A DNA stretch of 64,000 nt from an uncultured Tateyamaria sp. Lineage in GTDB: Bacteria > Pseudomonadota > Alphaproteobacteria > Rhodobacterales > Rhodobacteraceae. Numbering within the stretch: position 1 is the first letter of the stretch; each line of letters starts with the position of its first letter. The notes below the pieces were generated by a model. That model was not told where the DNA came from. It was given only the letters and a program-made list of their open reading frames with translations, and made no database searches. The stretch spans positions 1-64,000 of the forward strand of contig NZ_CANNGP010000014.1 in the NCBI RefSeq assembly GCF_947504105.1, given 5' to 3'. Of the stretch, positions 52,368 through 61,509 are shown in pieces. Both the position numbers and the translations under genes were made by a program.

Positions 52368-53519
52368 ATGACTGAAAAGGATACCCATCCTTCTTCCACT
52401 CACCCCCCACTCCCACCCACCTCGGAAGATGACCAGTTTGCTCGTCTCCGTCTGTTGCGCTCACGCCGGGTCGGCATTTCTACGTATAAACGCCTGCTGA
52501 TCGAACACGGCACCGCGCAAAACGCGCTGGCCGCGCTGCCTGAGGTAGCGCGCGCCGCCGGCGTTCAGAATTACCAGATATGCCCAGAAGGCGTAGTGCA
52601 CGCCGAGCTGAAAGCCGGGCGTGCCACCGGCGCACGACTCGTTCCGCTCGGTGACGCAGACTACCCCGCCCCGTTGGCGGAACTCAGCGACGCGCCGCCG
52701 TTTCTGTGGGTACTCGGCAAAACGTCTCTATTGCGCAAACCAATGATTGCACTCGTGGGTGCGCGCAATGCGTCATCGCTGGGTACGCGCATGGCGCGCT
52801 CGCTTGCGCGTGATCTTGGAGCGGAAGGTTATATTGTTGTTTCGGGGCTGGCGCGCGGTGTCGATGCCGCCGCACATCTCGCAGCGCTTGAGACGGGTAC
52901 CGTTGCGGTACAGGCTGGCGGGGTTGATACAATCTATCCCGCGGAAAATACCACTCTGGCCGAAGACATCGCAGCCAAAGGCGCGAGGATCAGTGAACAA
53001 CCCATGGGCTTGCAACCGATGGCCCGGCATTTTCCTGCGCGCAACCGCATCATCTCGGGTCTGGCCCAAGCCACAATCGTGGTTGAGGCGGCGGCGAAAT
53101 CCGGTAGCCTGATCACTGCACGCGATGCGCTCGATCTGGGTCGCGATGTCCTTGCGGTCCCGGGCCACCCCATGGATGCCCGTGCATCCGGGTGTAACAT
53201 GCTGATCCGCGACGGAGCCACCCTGGTACGTGATGCTTCGGATGTGCTTGAGGCACTGGCACCGATCGCGCGCGCCAAAACGCCAGAATTGCCGCTAGAA
53301 ACTCCATCAAGCGCGCCCAAAGATCGCCGCAACCTTAAGGAAACCGCCGCGCTACACCAACAGATCCTTTCACGTCTGGGTCCCTCGCCCCTGGCCGAAG
53401 ATCAGTTGATCCGCGATCTCGGTGCGCCCACTGCCGCAGTGGCGCCGGTACTGGTGGAACTAGAGCTTGACGGCAGCATCGACCGTGCCCCGGGCGGTCT
53501 TCTGACCCGCGCCAGTTGA
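52368..53519 (+). CDS. dprA: DNA-processing protein DprA
   Basis: This 383-residue protein has an N-terminal HhH/SAM-like segment (RLRLLRSRRVGISTYKRLL), the Rossmann-like DprA core (GARNASSLGTRMARSLARDLG, VVSGLARGVDAAAHLAAL, RNRIISGLAQATIVVEAA) and a C-terminal winged-helix domain (about 320-383). It loads RecA on incoming single-stranded DNA. ATG at 52368 has GGAG six bases upstream and is preferred over an earlier ATG (52293). It precedes topA by ~100 bp, a common pairing. Confidence 0.95.
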   Translation: MTEKDTHPSSTHPPLPPTSEDDQFARLRLLRSRRVGISTYKRLLIEHGTAQNALAALPEVARAAGVQNYQICPEGVVHAELKAGRATGARLVPLGDADYPAPLAELSDAPPFLWVLGKTSLLRKPMIALVGARNASSLGTRMARSLARDLGAEGYIVVSGLARGVDAAAHLAALETGTVAVQAGGVDTIYPAENTTLAEDIAAKGARISEQPMGLQPMARHFPARNRIISGLAQATIVVEAAAKSGSLITARDALDLGRDVLAVPGHPMDARASGCNMLIRDGATLVRDASDVLEALAPIARAKTPELPLETPSSAPKDRRNLKETAALHQQILSRLGPSPLAEDQLIRDLGAPTAAVAPVLVELELDGSIDRAPGGLLTRAS

Positions 53520-53617
53520 CCGCACCCCGCTGTGCCATGTTGACATTCGGGCCTTGCGCCCCACATGTTGCGCCGCCATAGAGCAGCAAATTATCCCGTT
53601 TGAGGTCACCCCAGTAC

Positions 53618-56185
53618 ATGCCTGTCGTCGTTGTAGAATCCCCTGCCAAAGCCAAGACGATCAACAAGTATCTGGGCGACAACTATACCGTTCTTGCCAG
53701 TTACGGGCACGTGCGCGATCTGCCGCCCAAAGACGGATCAGTCGACCCGGACAATGAATTCGAAATGCTGTGGGAAGTGGCAAGCGACAGCAAAAAGCAC
53801 ATGAAAGCTATCGCGGACGCACTGAAAGATGACAACGCCCTGATCCTCGCGACAGACCCCGACCGCGAAGGCGAAGCAATCAGTTGGCACCTGCAAGAGG
53901 CGCTGACCAAGCGCAAGTCGATCAAGAAGGACACGGACGTTAAACGCGTCACGTTCAACGCCATCACAAAGACCGCCGTGACCGAAGCGATGCAGAATGC
54001 GCGTCAGGTCGATATGCCACTGGTAGAAGCGTATCTGGCGCGCCGCGCGCTCGACTATCTGGTCGGCTTCAACCTGTCGCCGGTTCTGTGGCGCAAGCTG
54101 CCCGGTGCCAAATCCGCTGGGCGCGTTCAATCTGTTTGCCTGCGCCTCATCACCGAACGCGAGATGGAAATCGAAGCATTTCGTGCCCGCGAATACTGGT
54201 CCGTCAAAGCCGTTCTTGCGTCCCCGCGGGGACAGGAATACGAGGCGCGCCTCGTCAACCTGGCAGGCAAGAAGCTTGAGAAATATGATCTGGAGAACCA
54301 GACACAGGCGGAAATGGCCCAGCAGGCTATCACCAGCCGCGACCTGAAGATCCAGTCGGTCGAGGCAAAACCCGCCTCCCGCAACCCGTCAGCCCCGTTC
54401 ATGACGTCGACCCTGCAACAGGAAGCCAGCCGCAAATTCGGCATGGGCGCACGACAGTGTATGTCATCGGCCCAACGGCTGTATGAAGCTGGCTATATTA
54501 CATACATGCGGACCGATGGCATTGATATGGCACCCGAGGCCGTTCAAAATGCCCGGGATGCAATCAAGGACCGCTATGGCGCCGAATACGTCCCCGGCCA
54601 GCCGCGCATGTACAAAAACAAGGCCAAGAACGCTCAGGAAGCCCACGAGTGTATCCGCCCCACGGATATGGCACGCGATGCGGCCAGCCTGAAAATCACA
54701 GACGACGATCAGCGCAAGCTCTATGACCTGATCTGGAAACGGACCCTCGCCTGCCAGATGGAAGGCGCGCGGCTGGAACGCACCACGGTCGAGATTGGCA
54801 GCGACGACGGCCAGGTCGGTCTGCGTGCCACGGGTCAGGTCGTTCTGTTCGACGGGTTCCTGCGCGTTTACGAGGAAGGCCGCGATGACGTTGTCGTCGA
54901 TGACGATGACAAACGCCTGCCGCAAGTGAGCGAAGGTGAAGCCGCCGACAAGCGCTCGGTCACACCCGAGCAGCATTTCACCCAGCCTCCGCCCCGCTAT
55001 ACCGAGGCGACGCTGGTCAAGCGGATGGAAGAGTTGGGCATCGGGCGTCCCTCGACCTATGCCAGCATCGTCACGACCATTCAGGACCGCGGCTATGTCC
55101 GCAAGGATCGCAACCGCCTGATCCCCGAAGACAAGGGGCGGCTGGTGATCGCCTTCCTCGAAAACTACTTCCGCAAATATGTCGGCTACAACTTCACCGC
55201 AGGGCTTGAGGAAGAGCTGGACGACGTCAGCGCGGGTGACCGCAACTACAAGGATGTTCTGGGTCGCTTCTGGCAGGATTTCTCGGCTGCGATTGCGGAG
55301 ACATCCGAGCTGCGCATCACGGACGTGCTGGAAAAGATCAACGAGGTGCTGGAACCGCATCTGTTCCCGCCATTGGAAGATGGCGGCGATCCACGCCTGT
55401 GTCCGAATTGCGGACTTGGCCGTCTTTCGATGCGAACTGCCCGTTCGGGTGGTGCGTTTATCGGCTGTTCGAACTATCCCGAATGCCGTTACACTCGCCC
55501 CTTCGGCCCGCCGGATCCAGAAGCCGAAGCCAGTGCCATCCCGCCCGAGGGCAAGCTGCTGGGCGAGGATCACGGCGACGAAATCCGCATATTCAAAGGT
55601 CGCTTCGGTCCTTACGTACAACGCGGCGCGGTCACCGAAGAGAACAAAAAACCACCACGCCAGTCGATCCCCAAGGATTGGACCCCCGAGGAACTGGAGC
55701 TGGACAGGGCAGTCATGCTGCTGTCCCTGCCCCGCGAACTGGGGCCGCACCCCGAAGATGGGGTCATGGTCTGGGCCAATATCGGACGCTACGGCCCGTA
55801 TTTGAAACATGCGGAAAGCACGTCTGATCGCGGCGGCACCAATGCAAATCTCGAAAGCATTGATGAAGTGTGGACCGTCGGCATGAACCGTGCCGTCCAA
55901 TTGTTGGCCGAAAAGGTGGCAAGCCGGGGCGGACGCGGTGCAGCCGCCAAGCCGCTGCACGAATTGGGTGAACACCCGGATGAAGGCGGACCGGTCAACG
56001 TGATGAAAGGCAAGTACGGGCCTTACGTCAAATGGGGCAAGGTCAACGCAACGATCCCCAAGGGAACGGAACCCGAAAACGTGACGATGGACATGGCCGT
56101 TCAATTGATCGCGGAAAAGGCGCCCAAGAAAAAAACCACGCGCAAAAAGGCTGCTCCGAAAAAGGCAGCCAAGAAAAGCGCCTGA
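53618..56185 (+). CDS. topA: DNA topoisomerase I
   Basis: This 855-residue type IA topoisomerase has an N-terminal TOPRIM domain (VVVVESPAKAKTINKYLG; DPDREGEAISWHL) and the active-site tyrosine Y296 in ITYMRTDGI. One four-cysteine zinc ribbon (CPNCGLG ... GCSNYPEC) follows, then three DUF-like C-terminal repeats containing GRFGPYVQ, GRYGPYLK and GKYGPYVK. A Lys-rich tail ends in AAKKSA. It relaxes negative supercoils. The start MPVVVVESP is chosen over a TTG six codons upstream. Confidence 0.97.
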   Translation: MPVVVVESPAKAKTINKYLGDNYTVLASYGHVRDLPPKDGSVDPDNEFEMLWEVASDSKKHMKAIADALKDDNALILATDPDREGEAISWHLQEALTKRKSIKKDTDVKRVTFNAITKTAVTEAMQNARQVDMPLVEAYLARRALDYLVGFNLSPVLWRKLPGAKSAGRVQSVCLRLITEREMEIEAFRAREYWSVKAVLASPRGQEYEARLVNLAGKKLEKYDLENQTQAEMAQQAITSRDLKIQSVEAKPASRNPSAPFMTSTLQQEASRKFGMGARQCMSSAQRLYEAGYITYMRTDGIDMAPEAVQNARDAIKDRYGAEYVPGQPRMYKNKAKNAQEAHECIRPTDMARDAASLKITDDDQRKLYDLIWKRTLACQMEGARLERTTVEIGSDDGQVGLRATGQVVLFDGFLRVYEEGRDDVVVDDDDKRLPQVSEGEAADKRSVTPEQHFTQPPPRYTEATLVKRMEELGIGRPSTYASIVTTIQDRGYVRKDRNRLIPEDKGRLVIAFLENYFRKYVGYNFTAGLEEELDDVSAGDRNYKDVLGRFWQDFSAAIAETSELRITDVLEKINEVLEPHLFPPLEDGGDPRLCPNCGLGRLSMRTARSGGAFIGCSNYPECRYTRPFGPPDPEAEASAIPPEGKLLGEDHGDEIRIFKGRFGPYVQRGAVTEENKKPPRQSIPKDWTPEELELDRAVMLLSLPRELGPHPEDGVMVWANIGRYGPYLKHAESTSDRGGTNANLESIDEVWTVGMNRAVQLLAEKVASRGGRGAAAKPLHELGEHPDEGGPVNVMKGKYGPYVKWGKVNATIPKGTEPENVTMDMAVQLIAEKAPKKKTTRKKAAPKKAAKKSA

Positions 56186-57133: not shown

Positions 57134-57829
57134 ATGAAGAAGATTTACGGCTCAGCTTCCGAAGCGTTGGATGGGCTTTTGTTTGACGGCATGTTCATTG
57201 CGGCCGGGGGATTTGGCCTGTGCGGCATTCCCGAGCTGCTTCTGGATGCGATCAAGGATGCAGGCACCAAGGACCTGACTTTTGCATCGAACAACGCTGG
57301 TGTGGATGATTTCGGCATTGGCATCCTGTTGCAAACACGCCAGGTTAAAAAGATGATTTCGTCCTATGTGGGCGAAAACGCTGAGTTTATGCGCCAATAC
57401 CTGTCCGGCGAGCTTGAGCTTGAATTCAACCCCCAAGGCACATTGGCAGAACGCATGCGCGCTGGCGGCTGCGGCATCCCTGGTTTCTACACGAAAACCG
57501 GCGTTGGAACCGTGATCGCCGACGGCAAAGAGCATAAGGATTTCCGCGGCGAGACTTACATCATGGAAGAAGGCATCTTTGCCGACCTTTCCATCGTCAA
57601 AGCCTGGAAAGCCGATGAAACGGGTAACCTAGTGTTCCGCAAAACGGCCCGTAACTTCAACCCGCCCGCTGCAATGTGTGGCAAGGTCTGTATCGCAGAG
57701 GTGGAAGAGATTGTTCCGACCGGCAGCCTTGACCCTGACGTAATCCACCTACCTGGTATCTACGTCCACCGCCTGATTCAGGGCGAACATGAAAAGCGCA
57801 TCGAACAACGGACAACGCGCGCCGCGTGA
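57134..57829 (+). CDS. scoA: 3-oxoacid CoA-transferase subunit A
   Basis: This is the 231-residue alpha subunit of a family I CoA-transferase (SCOT/AtoD type). It has FIAAGGFGLCGIPELLLDAI, the FASNNAG segment, ISSYVGENAEF and the GIPGFYTKTGVGT loop. With subunit B it transfers CoA from succinyl-CoA or acetyl-CoA to acetoacetate, connecting ketone bodies or polyhydroxybutyrate products to central metabolism. TTGGGGAA lies about six bases before the ATG. The stop overlaps a GTG of the LOV gene's frame, and the LOV Shine-Dalgarno is inside this junction, so the three genes appear to be one operon. A TTGACT near 57059 may be the -35 region. Confidence 0.93.
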   Translation: MKKIYGSASEALDGLLFDGMFIAAGGFGLCGIPELLLDAIKDAGTKDLTFASNNAGVDDFGIGILLQTRQVKKMISSYVGENAEFMRQYLSGELELEFNPQGTLAERMRAGGCGIPGFYTKTGVGTVIADGKEHKDFRGETYIMEEGIFADLSIVKAWKADETGNLVFRKTARNFNPPAAMCGKVCIAEVEEIVPTGSLDPDVIHLPGIYVHRLIQGEHEKRIEQRTTRAA

Positions 57830-57840
57830 GGAGCCAGGCC

Positions 57841-58872
57841 ATGCCTGACACCATCGAAGAACTTCTGCAGGACGACAAATCCTTTGACGGATTTTCGCGT
57901 GCACAGGTCGCCATGGTGGTGACCAATCCGCATCTCGAAGACAATCCAATAGTGTACGTAAACCAGGCGTTCACACGCTCCACCGGGTACGCGCGATCTG
58001 CATCTATCGGGCGCAATTGCCGGTTCCTTCAAGGTGAAGGGACGCGCAAGTCCGATGTAGACAAACTGCGCGGTGGAGTCGAAACCGAGGAAAGCGTGAC
58101 GGTCGACATTCTGAACTACCGTGCGAATGGCGAACCATTCACAAACCGTCTGATTGTTGCACCGGTCCAGGACTCACGCGGCGAAACACAGTATTTCGTG
58201 GGTATTCAGAAAGAGCTGCGCCAAAGCGAAATGACAACCAGCGCCGAGGACGTAAACGCGCAACTGATCGAGATTCAGAACCGTGTTGCCTCTGACCTGT
58301 CGATGATCATCGGTATGATCCGGCAGCAATCAGGTACCACGTCAGTGCCGGAAGACTTCGTAGCACTAAGCCGCCGGATCGAAACGCTTCAACTACTCTA
58401 TGAAGAAATGAAGCTGAGCGATCAGCAATCCAACCGCGACAGTATCCAGATGGGCAGCTACCTTTCTCGATTGGCGGCGGCGATTGCTCACATTGAAGGT
58501 CGCTCGGGTATCCGCGTGTCGCTTCAGATTGAATCTCTGGAAGTCCCTATCGAAACGGCGACGCGTGTCGGACTGGTACTTTCCGAACTTCTTACAAATG
58601 CCTTCCAGCACGCCTTTGACCGCATCGATATGGGGCTGGTTGAAGTACGAATGAGTCGGCTCAGCGCAGGTGGCCTGCGCCTTATCGTTGCTGATGATGG
58701 TGTAGGCGTCCCGCCAGATATGGAATGGCCCGACAGCAAAACCGTTGGCGGGCGTATAGTTTCTGGCCTGATCGAGGGCCTCGAAGGCACATTGCACCTG
58801 GGCCGTGGCGCCGCAGGAAGCTTCATTACCATTGACGTGCCTGCCGGCGCGGCACTCACCGACGAATATTAA
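57841..58872 (+). CDS. LOV-domain blue-light sensor with degenerate histidine-kinase module
   Basis: This is a 343-residue protein. Residues ~20-125 form a LOV/PAS domain with the photoactive-cysteine motif GRNCRFLQG (C60), plus N41 and Q123-type flavin contacts in VNQAF and VGIQKEL. Residues ~135-200 are a HisKA_2-like dimerisation region, but the EIQNRVASDL segment has Q146-N147 where the family has HH, so the phospho-acceptor His is missing. Residues ~235-340 form a HATPase domain with N-box ELLTNAFQHAF, G1 box DDGVGVPP and a GGRIVSGLIEGLEG loop. AGGAG seven bases before ATG 57841 fixes the start; a GTG at 57826 is possible. It lies inside the CoA-transferase operon, between subunits A and B. 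No response regulator is adjacent. It may signal through ATP-dependent binding rather than phosphotransfer. Confidence 0.88.
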   Translation: MPDTIEELLQDDKSFDGFSRAQVAMVVTNPHLEDNPIVYVNQAFTRSTGYARSASIGRNCRFLQGEGTRKSDVDKLRGGVETEESVTVDILNYRANGEPFTNRLIVAPVQDSRGETQYFVGIQKELRQSEMTTSAEDVNAQLIEIQNRVASDLSMIIGMIRQQSGTTSVPEDFVALSRRIETLQLLYEEMKLSDQQSNRDSIQMGSYLSRLAAAIAHIEGRSGIRVSLQIESLEVPIETATRVGLVLSELLTNAFQHAFDRIDMGLVEVRMSRLSAGGLRLIVADDGVGVPPDMEWPDSKTVGGRIVSGLIEGLEGTLHLGRGAAGSFITIDVPAGAALTDEY

Positions 58873-58884
58873 TAAGGACAATCG

Positions 58885-59511
58885 ATGCCCTGGGATCGCA
58901 ACCAAATGGCGGCGCGTGCCGCACAGGAACTTGAAGACGGCTGGTATGTGAACCTCGGGATTGGAATCCCTACGCTGGTATCGAACTATATCCCCGAGGG
59001 GATCGAAGTGACGCTGCAATCCGAGAACGGCATGCTCGGCATGGGCCCCTTTCCCATTGAGGGCAAAGAGGACGCGGACCTGATCAACGCCGGCAAACAA
59101 ACAATTACAGAACTGCCTCAGACTGCTTATTTCGACAGCGCACAAAGCTTCGGTATGATCCGCGGCGGCAAGATCGCCATGGCCATTCTGGGTGCGATGG
59201 AAGTGGCAGAGAACGGTGACCTGGCCAACTGGATGATCCCCGGCAAACTGGTCAAGGGCATGGGCGGCGCTATGGACCTCGTGGCTGGCGTGGGTCGCGT
59301 GGTGGTCGTCATGGACCATACGAACAAGCATGGTGACAGCAAGGTACTCAAGGAATGTACCCTGCCCCTGACGGGCAAAGGCGTGGTTGATCGCATCATC
59401 ACGAATCTTGGCGTGCTCGATGTCGTCGATGGCGGCCTGAAGATTGTCGAAGTCGCGGACGGTGTGACAGAAGACAAGTTGCGCGCGGCCACCCAAGCCA
59501 CTCTTGTTTGA
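58885..59511 (+). CDS. scoB: 3-oxoacid CoA-transferase subunit B
   Basis: This is the 208-residue beta subunit, with the catalytic glutamate E47 in [12 protein letters not shown], which forms the glutamyl-CoA thioester. Also present are [33 protein letters not shown] and [12 protein letters not shown]. It starts 12 bp after the LOV gene, with AAGGAC a few bases before the ATG. In most genomes its gene adjoins subunit A; here 1.05 kb encoding the LOV protein intervenes. Nothing indicates damage to either subunit. Confidence 0.94.
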
Positions 59512-59844: not shown

Positions 59845-60654
59845 TCAATTCAATGCGGCAAAGACACACCCGTCCGTGACAAGTTCGGGCGGCGTAACAC
59901 ACAAACCCTTCGCCACCTGGAATGTCGCCAGAACCTTGGGTACGTAATCTCGCGTCTCAGCAAAGGGCGGGACACCATTGTGGGTGCGCACAGACCCCTC
60001 TCCCGCATTATACCCGGCCAGAACAAGAACGGGGTCGCGCTCGAACGTATCCATCAGCCAATCCAGGTATTTGACACCACCTGCAATATTCTCGGCCGGG
60101 GCAAAGCTGTCTTGCACGCCAAAACGCGCAGCCGTGTCAGGCATCAATTGCATCAGCCCTTGCGCACCTGCGCCGCTTAACGCATCTGCCTTACCTGCAG
60201 ACTCCACCATCATGACTGCCAACACCAATGCAGGCGATACATCCGTACCTATGGTGGCCTTAAGGATGTCGATACCCTGTGCTTGCGCCAGCGCCTGCAT
60301 TTGTTGCAGGCGTGGCACCGGCACAGGCGGCTCGGCTCGAGCCAATGCCCTCAACGCCAGATCCAATCGCCCAGGCCCGGCTTGGTCTATCTCGGGCGAA
60401 ACATCTTGCCAGAACCAATCAAAGCGCGTCACAGGCGCTTTGGGAGCCGCTGCCACATCGGATGCTTCAGGCACACTTACTTCTGTCGCCGGGGCTTCAG
60501 GTTCAATCTGCACCGTGATCAATTTCTTCGATCCCGGCTGCGGCGGCTTTACACGTTTCGCAGAAAAATCCTTGAAGGGTGGCGGCTCATCGGCAAAGCC
60601 ACCGCCGCACATCAAAGTCAGCGCTGTCAGGAGCGCAACAGACAAACGAACCAT
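59845..60654 (-). CDS. Lytic transglycosylase (SLT domain)
   Basis: This 269-residue secreted murein lytic transglycosylase has a signal peptide (residues 1-21, LTLMCGGGFAD), a Pro-rich linker and a C-terminal SLT domain with catalytic glutamate in VMMVESAGKADALSGAGAQG, LMQLMPDTAARFGV, NIAGGVKYLDWLM and LAGYNAGEGSV. It cleaves peptidoglycan with 1,6-anhydro product formation. It lies head-to-head with the Tad pilus locus, and such enzymes often open the cell wall for secretion or pilus machines, although it is in the opposite orientation. Confidence 0.92.
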   Translation of the reverse strand: MVRLSVALLTALTLMCGGGFADEPPPFKDFSAKRVKPPQPGSKKLITVQIEPEAPATEVSVPEASDVAAAPKAPVTRFDWFWQDVSPEIDQAGPGRLDLALRALARAEPPVPVPRLQQMQALAQAQGIDILKATIGTDVSPALVLAVMMVESAGKADALSGAGAQGLMQLMPDTAARFGVQDSFAPAENIAGGVKYLDWLMDTFERDPVLVLAGYNAGEGSVRTHNGVPPFAETRDYVPKVLATFQVAKGLCVTPPELVTDGCVFAALN

Positions 60655-61021: not shown

Positions 61022-61225
61022 ATGATCAAGTTCATCAAAAACTTCCGCAACGACGAAGACGGCGCCGTAACAGTTGACTGGGTTGTTCTGACCGCAGCCG
61101 TTGTTGGCCTGGCGATCGCAGCCTATGGTTCGATCCAATCCGGTGCCACAGACCTGACCGCAGCCACCGAGACGTTCCTGGGTGAGCAAACTGTTGGTTC
61201 GATCGGCGCACCTGCTGGCGAATAA
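61022..61225 (+). CDS. Flp-like type IVb pilin
   Basis: This 67-residue protein has a short basic leader (MIKFIKNFRNDEDG), a predicted prepilin-peptidase site G14-A15, and a hydrophobic helix AVTVDWVVLTAAVVGLAIAA. In classic Flp pilins, mature residues 5-6 are Glu-Tyr; here they are Asp19-Trp20. It lies just upstream of cpaB and cpaC, which supports a pilin role in the Tad (tight adherence) pilus. It has its own strong ribosome site and a terminator, consistent with high expression. A minor pilin or a TadE-like function is possible. Confidence 0.75.
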   Translation: MIKFIKNFRNDEDGAVTVDWVVLTAAVVGLAIAAYGSIQSGATDLTAATETFLGEQTVGSIGAPAGE

Positions 61226-61323: not shown

Positions 61324-61509
61324 ATGATCCGCTTCCTGAAAAACTTTCACCGCAGTGAATGCGGCGCAGTGACAGTCGACTGGGTTGTACTATGTGCGGC
61401 CATCGTTGGTCTGGCCATTGTGATCGTCACCACCATGCAGTCCGGCGCGTTGACACTCGCTGACAATGTCGGAACCTTCTTCGATACACATTTCTTCGCC
61501 GACGAATAG
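61324..61509 (+). CDS. Second Flp-like type IVb pilin
   Basis: This 61-residue paralog of the preceding pilin shares MI(K/R)F(I/L)KNF, the G14-A15 cleavage site and the identical stretch GAVTVDWVVL, then diverges (CAAIVGLAIVIVTTMQSGAL, C-terminus FFDTHFFADE). It carries two cysteines (C13, C24) that the first copy lacks. AGAGGTCGAAG precedes the ATG. It is probably a second major or minor Tad pilin; the adjacent duplication suggests divergence of subunit roles. Confidence 0.74.
   Translation: MIRFLKNFHRSECGAVTVDWVVLCAAIVGLAIVIVTTMQSGALTLADNVGTFFDTHFFADE

Follow-up and report, generated by a model that had tools for sequence, protein, structure and literature searches.

The LOV photoreceptor gene placed between scoA and scoB, the two subunit genes of a 3-oxoacid CoA-transferase, is most likely an orthologue of LdaP of Dinoroseobacter shibae, and we consider it highly probable that this orthologue rides on the scoAB transcript and does not control the CoA-transferase. 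The features concerned, in the window (the whole stretch of 64,000 nucleotides that was analysed), are as follows:

53600-56185, plus strand: topA-like ORF, found upstream of the block in relatives as well (named by eye; synteny)
57134-57829, plus strand: scoA, 3-oxoacid CoA-transferase subunit A (TIGR02429, 232.6 bits against a cut-off of 128.5; PF01144)
57830-57833, plus strand: Shine-Dalgarno-like GGAG of the LOV gene, directly 3' of the scoA stop (sequence)
57841-58872, plus strand: ldaP-like gene with LOV, degenerate HisKA_2-like and HATPase regions (343 aa)
57910-58218, plus strand: LOV (PAS_9) domain (PF13426, E 7.3e-16)
58018-58020, plus strand: codon of the photoactive Cys60 in the motif GRNCRFLQ (alignment)
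58279-58281, plus strand: codon of Asn147 at the position of the EL346 phosphoacceptor His (EIQNRV here, EVQHRV in EL346)
58558-58800, plus strand: HATPase_c domain with N-box and G1-box residues kept (PF02518, E 2.1e-7)
58885-59511, plus strand: scoB, 3-oxoacid CoA-transferase subunit B (TIGR02428, 329 bits against a cut-off of 243.55)
59845-60654, minus strand: SLT lytic transglycosylase, conserved downstream neighbour (PF01464, E 6e-25; synteny)

The ORF list and the sequence place the ATG of scoA at 57134 and the end of its stop at 57829, those of the LOV gene at 57841 and 58872, and those of scoB, which has AAGGA 5' of its start, at 58885 and 59511, leaving gaps of 11 bp (57830-57840) and 12 bp (58873-58884). 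The original prediction that the three genes lie on one strand with junctions of these lengths, and that the LOV Shine-Dalgarno lies at the scoA stop, was confirmed. The cut-offs of both 3-oxoacid CoA-transferase subfamily models were exceeded by the ScoA and ScoB of the window. Because of the tight junction spacing, scoA, the LOV gene and scoB are likely co-transcribed, as had been proposed. No promoter-like site was found in a scan of the two junctions, and the single terminator-like match at the LOV/scoB junction (58875-58891) lies on the minus strand; the counts of the scan were near chance for promoters (2 against 2.2 in shuffles) and terminators (5 against 3.5). Farther downstream, two similar short tandem ORFs (61022-61225 and 61324-61509), Flp-type pilin-like by eye, are located upstream of a cpaB-like ORF.

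The Pfam architecture of the middle protein follows the order of LOV histidine kinases, namely LOV, HisKA_2-like region and HATPase, and its best solved-structure match is 4r3a (EL346, blue-light-activated histidine kinase 2; E 1e-87), with the same architecture and homology over residues 16-336. EL346 has the phosphoacceptor His, whereas the window protein has Asn, and the K and N next to this position in the H-box are lost as well. An ordinary EL346-type blue-light histidine kinase with a response-regulator partner, to which the structural match and the retained ATP-site residues would point, is therefore extremely improbable, the more so as the D. shibae orthologue shows no autophosphorylation according to the main text of its description (PMC10890935). 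With the phosphoacceptor His gone, the window protein would work by protein contact rather than by phosphotransfer. Comparison of the LOV coding sequence with five relatives gave dN of 0.13-0.21 and dS of 1.9-4.2, the latter saturated, which is consistent with purifying selection. In one relative among the LOV kinases (L034, genome G062), the motif reads GRNWRFLL, and it should form no adduct because Trp replaces the photoactive Cys.

Across 102 aligned LOV-kinase rows, a few of which are the same genome twice, the phosphoacceptor His is absent in 21 and kept in 81. In a tree of 52 of these rows, with same-genome duplicates and far rows left out, 17 His-less rows that include the window protein and D. 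shibae LdaP form one clade with support of 99/99; their genomes comprise 12 from the family draw and five named genomes. Within this clade, Cys60, Arg61, Gln64, Asn92, Asn102 and Gln123 are each present in 17/17 rows, as is the DDGxG motif, and the N-box Asn is present in 16/17. The His-less LdaP clade is a single event. A strict link of the missing His with the clade and with photosynthesis genes is contradicted by two further His-less proteins, one outside the clade (L026, genome G058) and one on a long branch in a Hellea MAG that is without photosynthesis genes (L083). The survey protein L013 is, by its sequence, the LdaP of D. shibae: it has 338 aa, GRNCRFLQ at 58-65, C61 and R148, the values of the published protein (PMC10890935), and 6 kb of plasmid sequence on its contig C2 (190506 bp) match D. 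shibae DFL 12 NC_009955.1 at 100% identity. LdaP and the window protein share domain order, LOV motif, the missing His and ATP-site residues, and the two genomes share PpsR and reaction-centre genes, the scoA-ldaP-scoB nest and the same flanks. They differ in that the His position is taken by Arg in D. shibae and by Asn here. The identity of only 56% to D. shibae LdaP (Dshi_1135), and the fact that the clade represents one event, count against the LdaP reading.

According to the main text of PMC10890935, LdaP of D. shibae is a blue-light-dependent antirepressor of PpsR that acts in the dark, undergoes an FMN photocycle, and contacts PpsR as judged by co-purification and by two-hybrid analysis, the two-hybrid signal being obtained in one fusion combination only; the gene supplied in trans restored pigment. 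Seven PpsR peptides were co-purified with LdaP in white light, seven in blue light and one in the dark, for which its authors point to about 10x less bait in the dark and to a Western blot with PpsR mainly in the dark (PMC10890935); these peptide numbers and the single fusion combination count against the LdaP reading. PpsR contact is known for D. shibae LdaP only, and we infer that the window orthologue acts in the same manner, with the photocycle, the missing autophosphorylation, the PpsR contact and the antirepression all taken from the D. shibae work. In the dark, the window orthologue would bind PpsR, so that the photosynthesis gene cluster would be derepressed; in blue light, a Cys60-FMN adduct would form, antirepression would end, and PpsR would repress.

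The genome of the window carries both PpsR and reaction-centre genes. PpsR was found at C17:10522-11850, and there are two PF00124 reaction-centre matches, one listed at C17:57374-58132. Over C17:1-80000, the PpsR-type site TGT-N12-ACA occurs 26 times, where 40 Markov shuffles gave 11.8 (sd 2.6), and these sites include three tandem pairs. The count across the window was 10 against 12.0 by chance, and PpsR control of the scoAB operon was rejected, as the site is absent near scoA and the nearest occurrences in the window are at 52859 and 62628. Among the 17 clade genomes, PF00124 was detected in 16 and PpsR over its cut-off in 16, with at least one of the two in all 17, as compared with PF00124 in 122 of the 295 genomes of the family draw. 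The draw alone gives 12/12 clade genomes with photosynthesis genes (Fisher 1.8e-5, kinship uncorrected). Set against nested His-bearing LOV genomes, of which 13 were counted (L026 was excluded for lacking the His and L027 for lying at a contig edge), the ratio is 17/17 against 2/13 (Fisher 1.4e-6, kinship uncorrected); the 17 include G187 and Roseobacter sp. MH60115, whose LOV gene stands at the locus without scoAB. A kinship check of this association by independent pairs on the ScoA and ScoB tree yielded three supported pairs only.

With respect to the distribution of the nest, the LOV search in 295 genomes of the family (294 genera) led to 30 LOV loci being studied, of which 19 are flanked by scoA and scoB, one lies at a contig edge with scoA alone beside it, and 10 have neither gene next to them. 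The comparison of neighbourhoods that had been suggested therefore shows a nest conserved beyond this genome; 15/17 rows of the LdaP clade have the gene between scoA and scoB. The order topA-scoA-LOV-scoB-SLT-cpaB was observed in D. shibae, a Shimia MAG, Aestuariivita boseongensis, Roseibaca, Pseudooceanicola marinus and genome G018, these being examples among the matches listed, and it houses His-less as well as His-bearing LOV proteins. Judging by the tree and the synteny, the nest probably predates the loss of the His; a LOV kinase gene would have come between scoA and scoB long ago and then descended in place. Such persistence is longer than a pure passenger needs, and this counts against regarding the gene as a mere passenger.

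The LOV gene and scoAB are nonetheless separable in nature. In both G187 and Roseobacter sp. MH60115, the locus reads topA-LOV-SLT-cpaB with no scoAB in it, and scoA is located elsewhere. Genome G240, which belongs to the genus of the window, displays topA-scoA-scoB-SLT-cpaB without a LOV gene, and its scoA/scoB junction of 129 bp holds a 24-residue match to the C-terminal end of the window LOV protein (67%, E 7.6e-7) and a weak 21-bp match near the start of the LOV gene (E 0.077). These remnants indicate that G240 very probably once had the LOV gene and then lost it, while scoAB and the photosynthesis genes stayed, and the role of LdaP is dispensable because this genome has photosynthesis genes yet lost the gene, a further point against the LdaP reading. 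Two PpsR matches over the cut-off were recorded in G240 (C34:63499-64818 and C38:25882-27207), one of them with an internal TAG. Among the 30 junction gaps tested, a LOV scar was clear in G240 only; the gap of G052 matched the helical part only (E 0.006) and the remaining gaps gave E 0.2 or worse, and all of these were taken as chance.

The original prediction proposed that the LOV protein controls the CoA-transferase or makes contact with its subunits, so that acetoacetate or polyhydroxybutyrate (PHB) metabolism would be linked to light. This we regard as very unlikely, since the only point in its favour is the position between the subunit genes, and neither part of the proposal found support: the targets of the known orthologue are PpsR and photosynthesis genes, the LOV gene and scoAB occur apart in relatives, and of the 260 proteins identified in the LdaP co-purification, the 15 enriched partners given in the main text include no CoA-transferase subunit (PMC10890935). 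That main text, supplements aside, does not mention CoA-transferase, acetoacetate, scoA, Dshi_1134 or Dshi_1136. The accompanying claim that no such system had been described stands for the nesting, for which none was found in the open-licence papers searched, and falls for the photoreceptor, LdaP having been published.

The position itself was assessed by a census of scoA/scoB junctions in 159 genomes, drawn from the best rows listed (264 of the 295 family genomes have a close scoA), with G146 left out at a contig edge. The two genes are adjacent (120 bp or less) in 112 junctions, a LOV gene lies between them in 20, another insert or a gap of more than 120 bp was found in 26, and scoB fell outside the examined stretch in one. 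The 20/159 overstates the LOV share because genomes with a known nested LOV gene were added by hand, and among the 26 are the scar of G240 and a number of 129-313 bp gaps without a recognised gene. Other inserts at this junction include GSCFA/SGNH-like pairs, a methyltransferase, a glycosyltransferase-like protein, a DUF1801 protein and small helical proteins. As a control, a random sample of 80 genomes was taken from the census and 74 were scored by the pair of the best SucD match, without G061, G142, G212 and G273, which have no usable pair, and without G037 and G136, where the sole pairs are separated by 23 and 18 bp. In these same 74 genomes, the gap exceeds 120 bp in 52 at the main sucC-sucD junction and in 22 at scoA-scoB; when all sucCD-like pairs are counted, 52/96 exceed 120 bp, and a pair spaced so widely is present in 52/76 genomes. 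Since none of the 22 second sucCD-like pairs (all 51 bp apart or less) is interrupted, inserts are not tolerated at every subunit junction; they are frequent at some subunit junctions of the family and not at all of them. Given the other inserts at the scoA/scoB junction and the frequent interruption of the main sucC-sucD pair, the nested position alone is weak evidence of functional coupling, and this argues further against control of the CoA-transferase by the LOV protein. In the genome of the window, sucC and sucD (L280, C3:144800-149000) are 1401 bp apart, with ORFs without an assigned family between them.

If the ldaP-like gene is expressed from the scoA promoter, as is probable, its amount might be coupled to metabolism without any light regulation of the enzyme. 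The scoA promoter would then set the amount of ldaP product in step with the consumption of acetoacetate, PHB or leucine carbon, and the photosynthesis genes would open only in the dark and while such carbon is used. The operon would be a two-input switch in which ketone-body or PHB carbon sets the amount of the antirepressor and the LOV domain sets its activity by light, the photosynthesis genes opening when the two inputs coincide. The tight junctions agree with this, as does the nest in 15/17 clade rows and, between the same neighbours, in His-bearing relatives, and the uninterrupted second sucCD-like pairs suggest that a kept insert may carry a cost. Against it stand the LOV genes kept at the locus without scoAB in G187 and MH60115, the unrelated inserts at the same junction, and the ten aligned promoter regions (nine upstream of scoA and one upstream of LOV in G187), in which no clear block of a shared scoA promoter was seen. 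No publication in the literature listings dealt with control of the D. shibae scoAB by light or carbon. On balance, such coupling of dose appears unlikely, though less so than either of the other alternatives, and the LdaP orthologue carried on the scoAB transcript remains the preferred reading.

This preferred reading gives the nested photoreceptor gene of these phototrophs a likely function and predicts that light controls their photosynthesis via PpsR. It also suggests that the ancestor of LdaP was a LOV kinase nested in scoAB, the His being lost in lineages that have photosynthesis genes. Caution is advised in this family when function is read from a location between subunit genes, as other genes occupy the same site. 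A GSCFA and SGNH-like gene pair lies inside scoA/scoB in about ten genera (L144 in G187, G239, G095, G087, G070, G072, G020, G213, G130 and G219), the motif being visible in nine, the tenth being assigned by size and partner gene, and Pfam having been run on one. In several genera, the scoA/scoB junction encodes a small protein of about 75-85 aa (L042, L046, L164, L169 and L228 in G286, G003, G221, G196 and G052), and Pfam on three of these proteins gave no match above cut-off.

AppA is likewise an antirepressor of PpsR in which blue light ends antirepression, according to the literature (PMC4844311; PMC10890935), but its photosensor is a BLUF domain, unrelated to the LOV of LdaP. BLUF frames of 342 aa and 173 aa were found in the clade genome G251 and in this genome, respectively. 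Matches to BLUF with open frames of at least 390 aa, judged by frame length and possibly not AppA, were detected in G051, G091, G080, G118, G062, G253 and G083 and in no genome of the LdaP clade, which is suggestive of AppA as an alternative to LdaP in other phototrophs.
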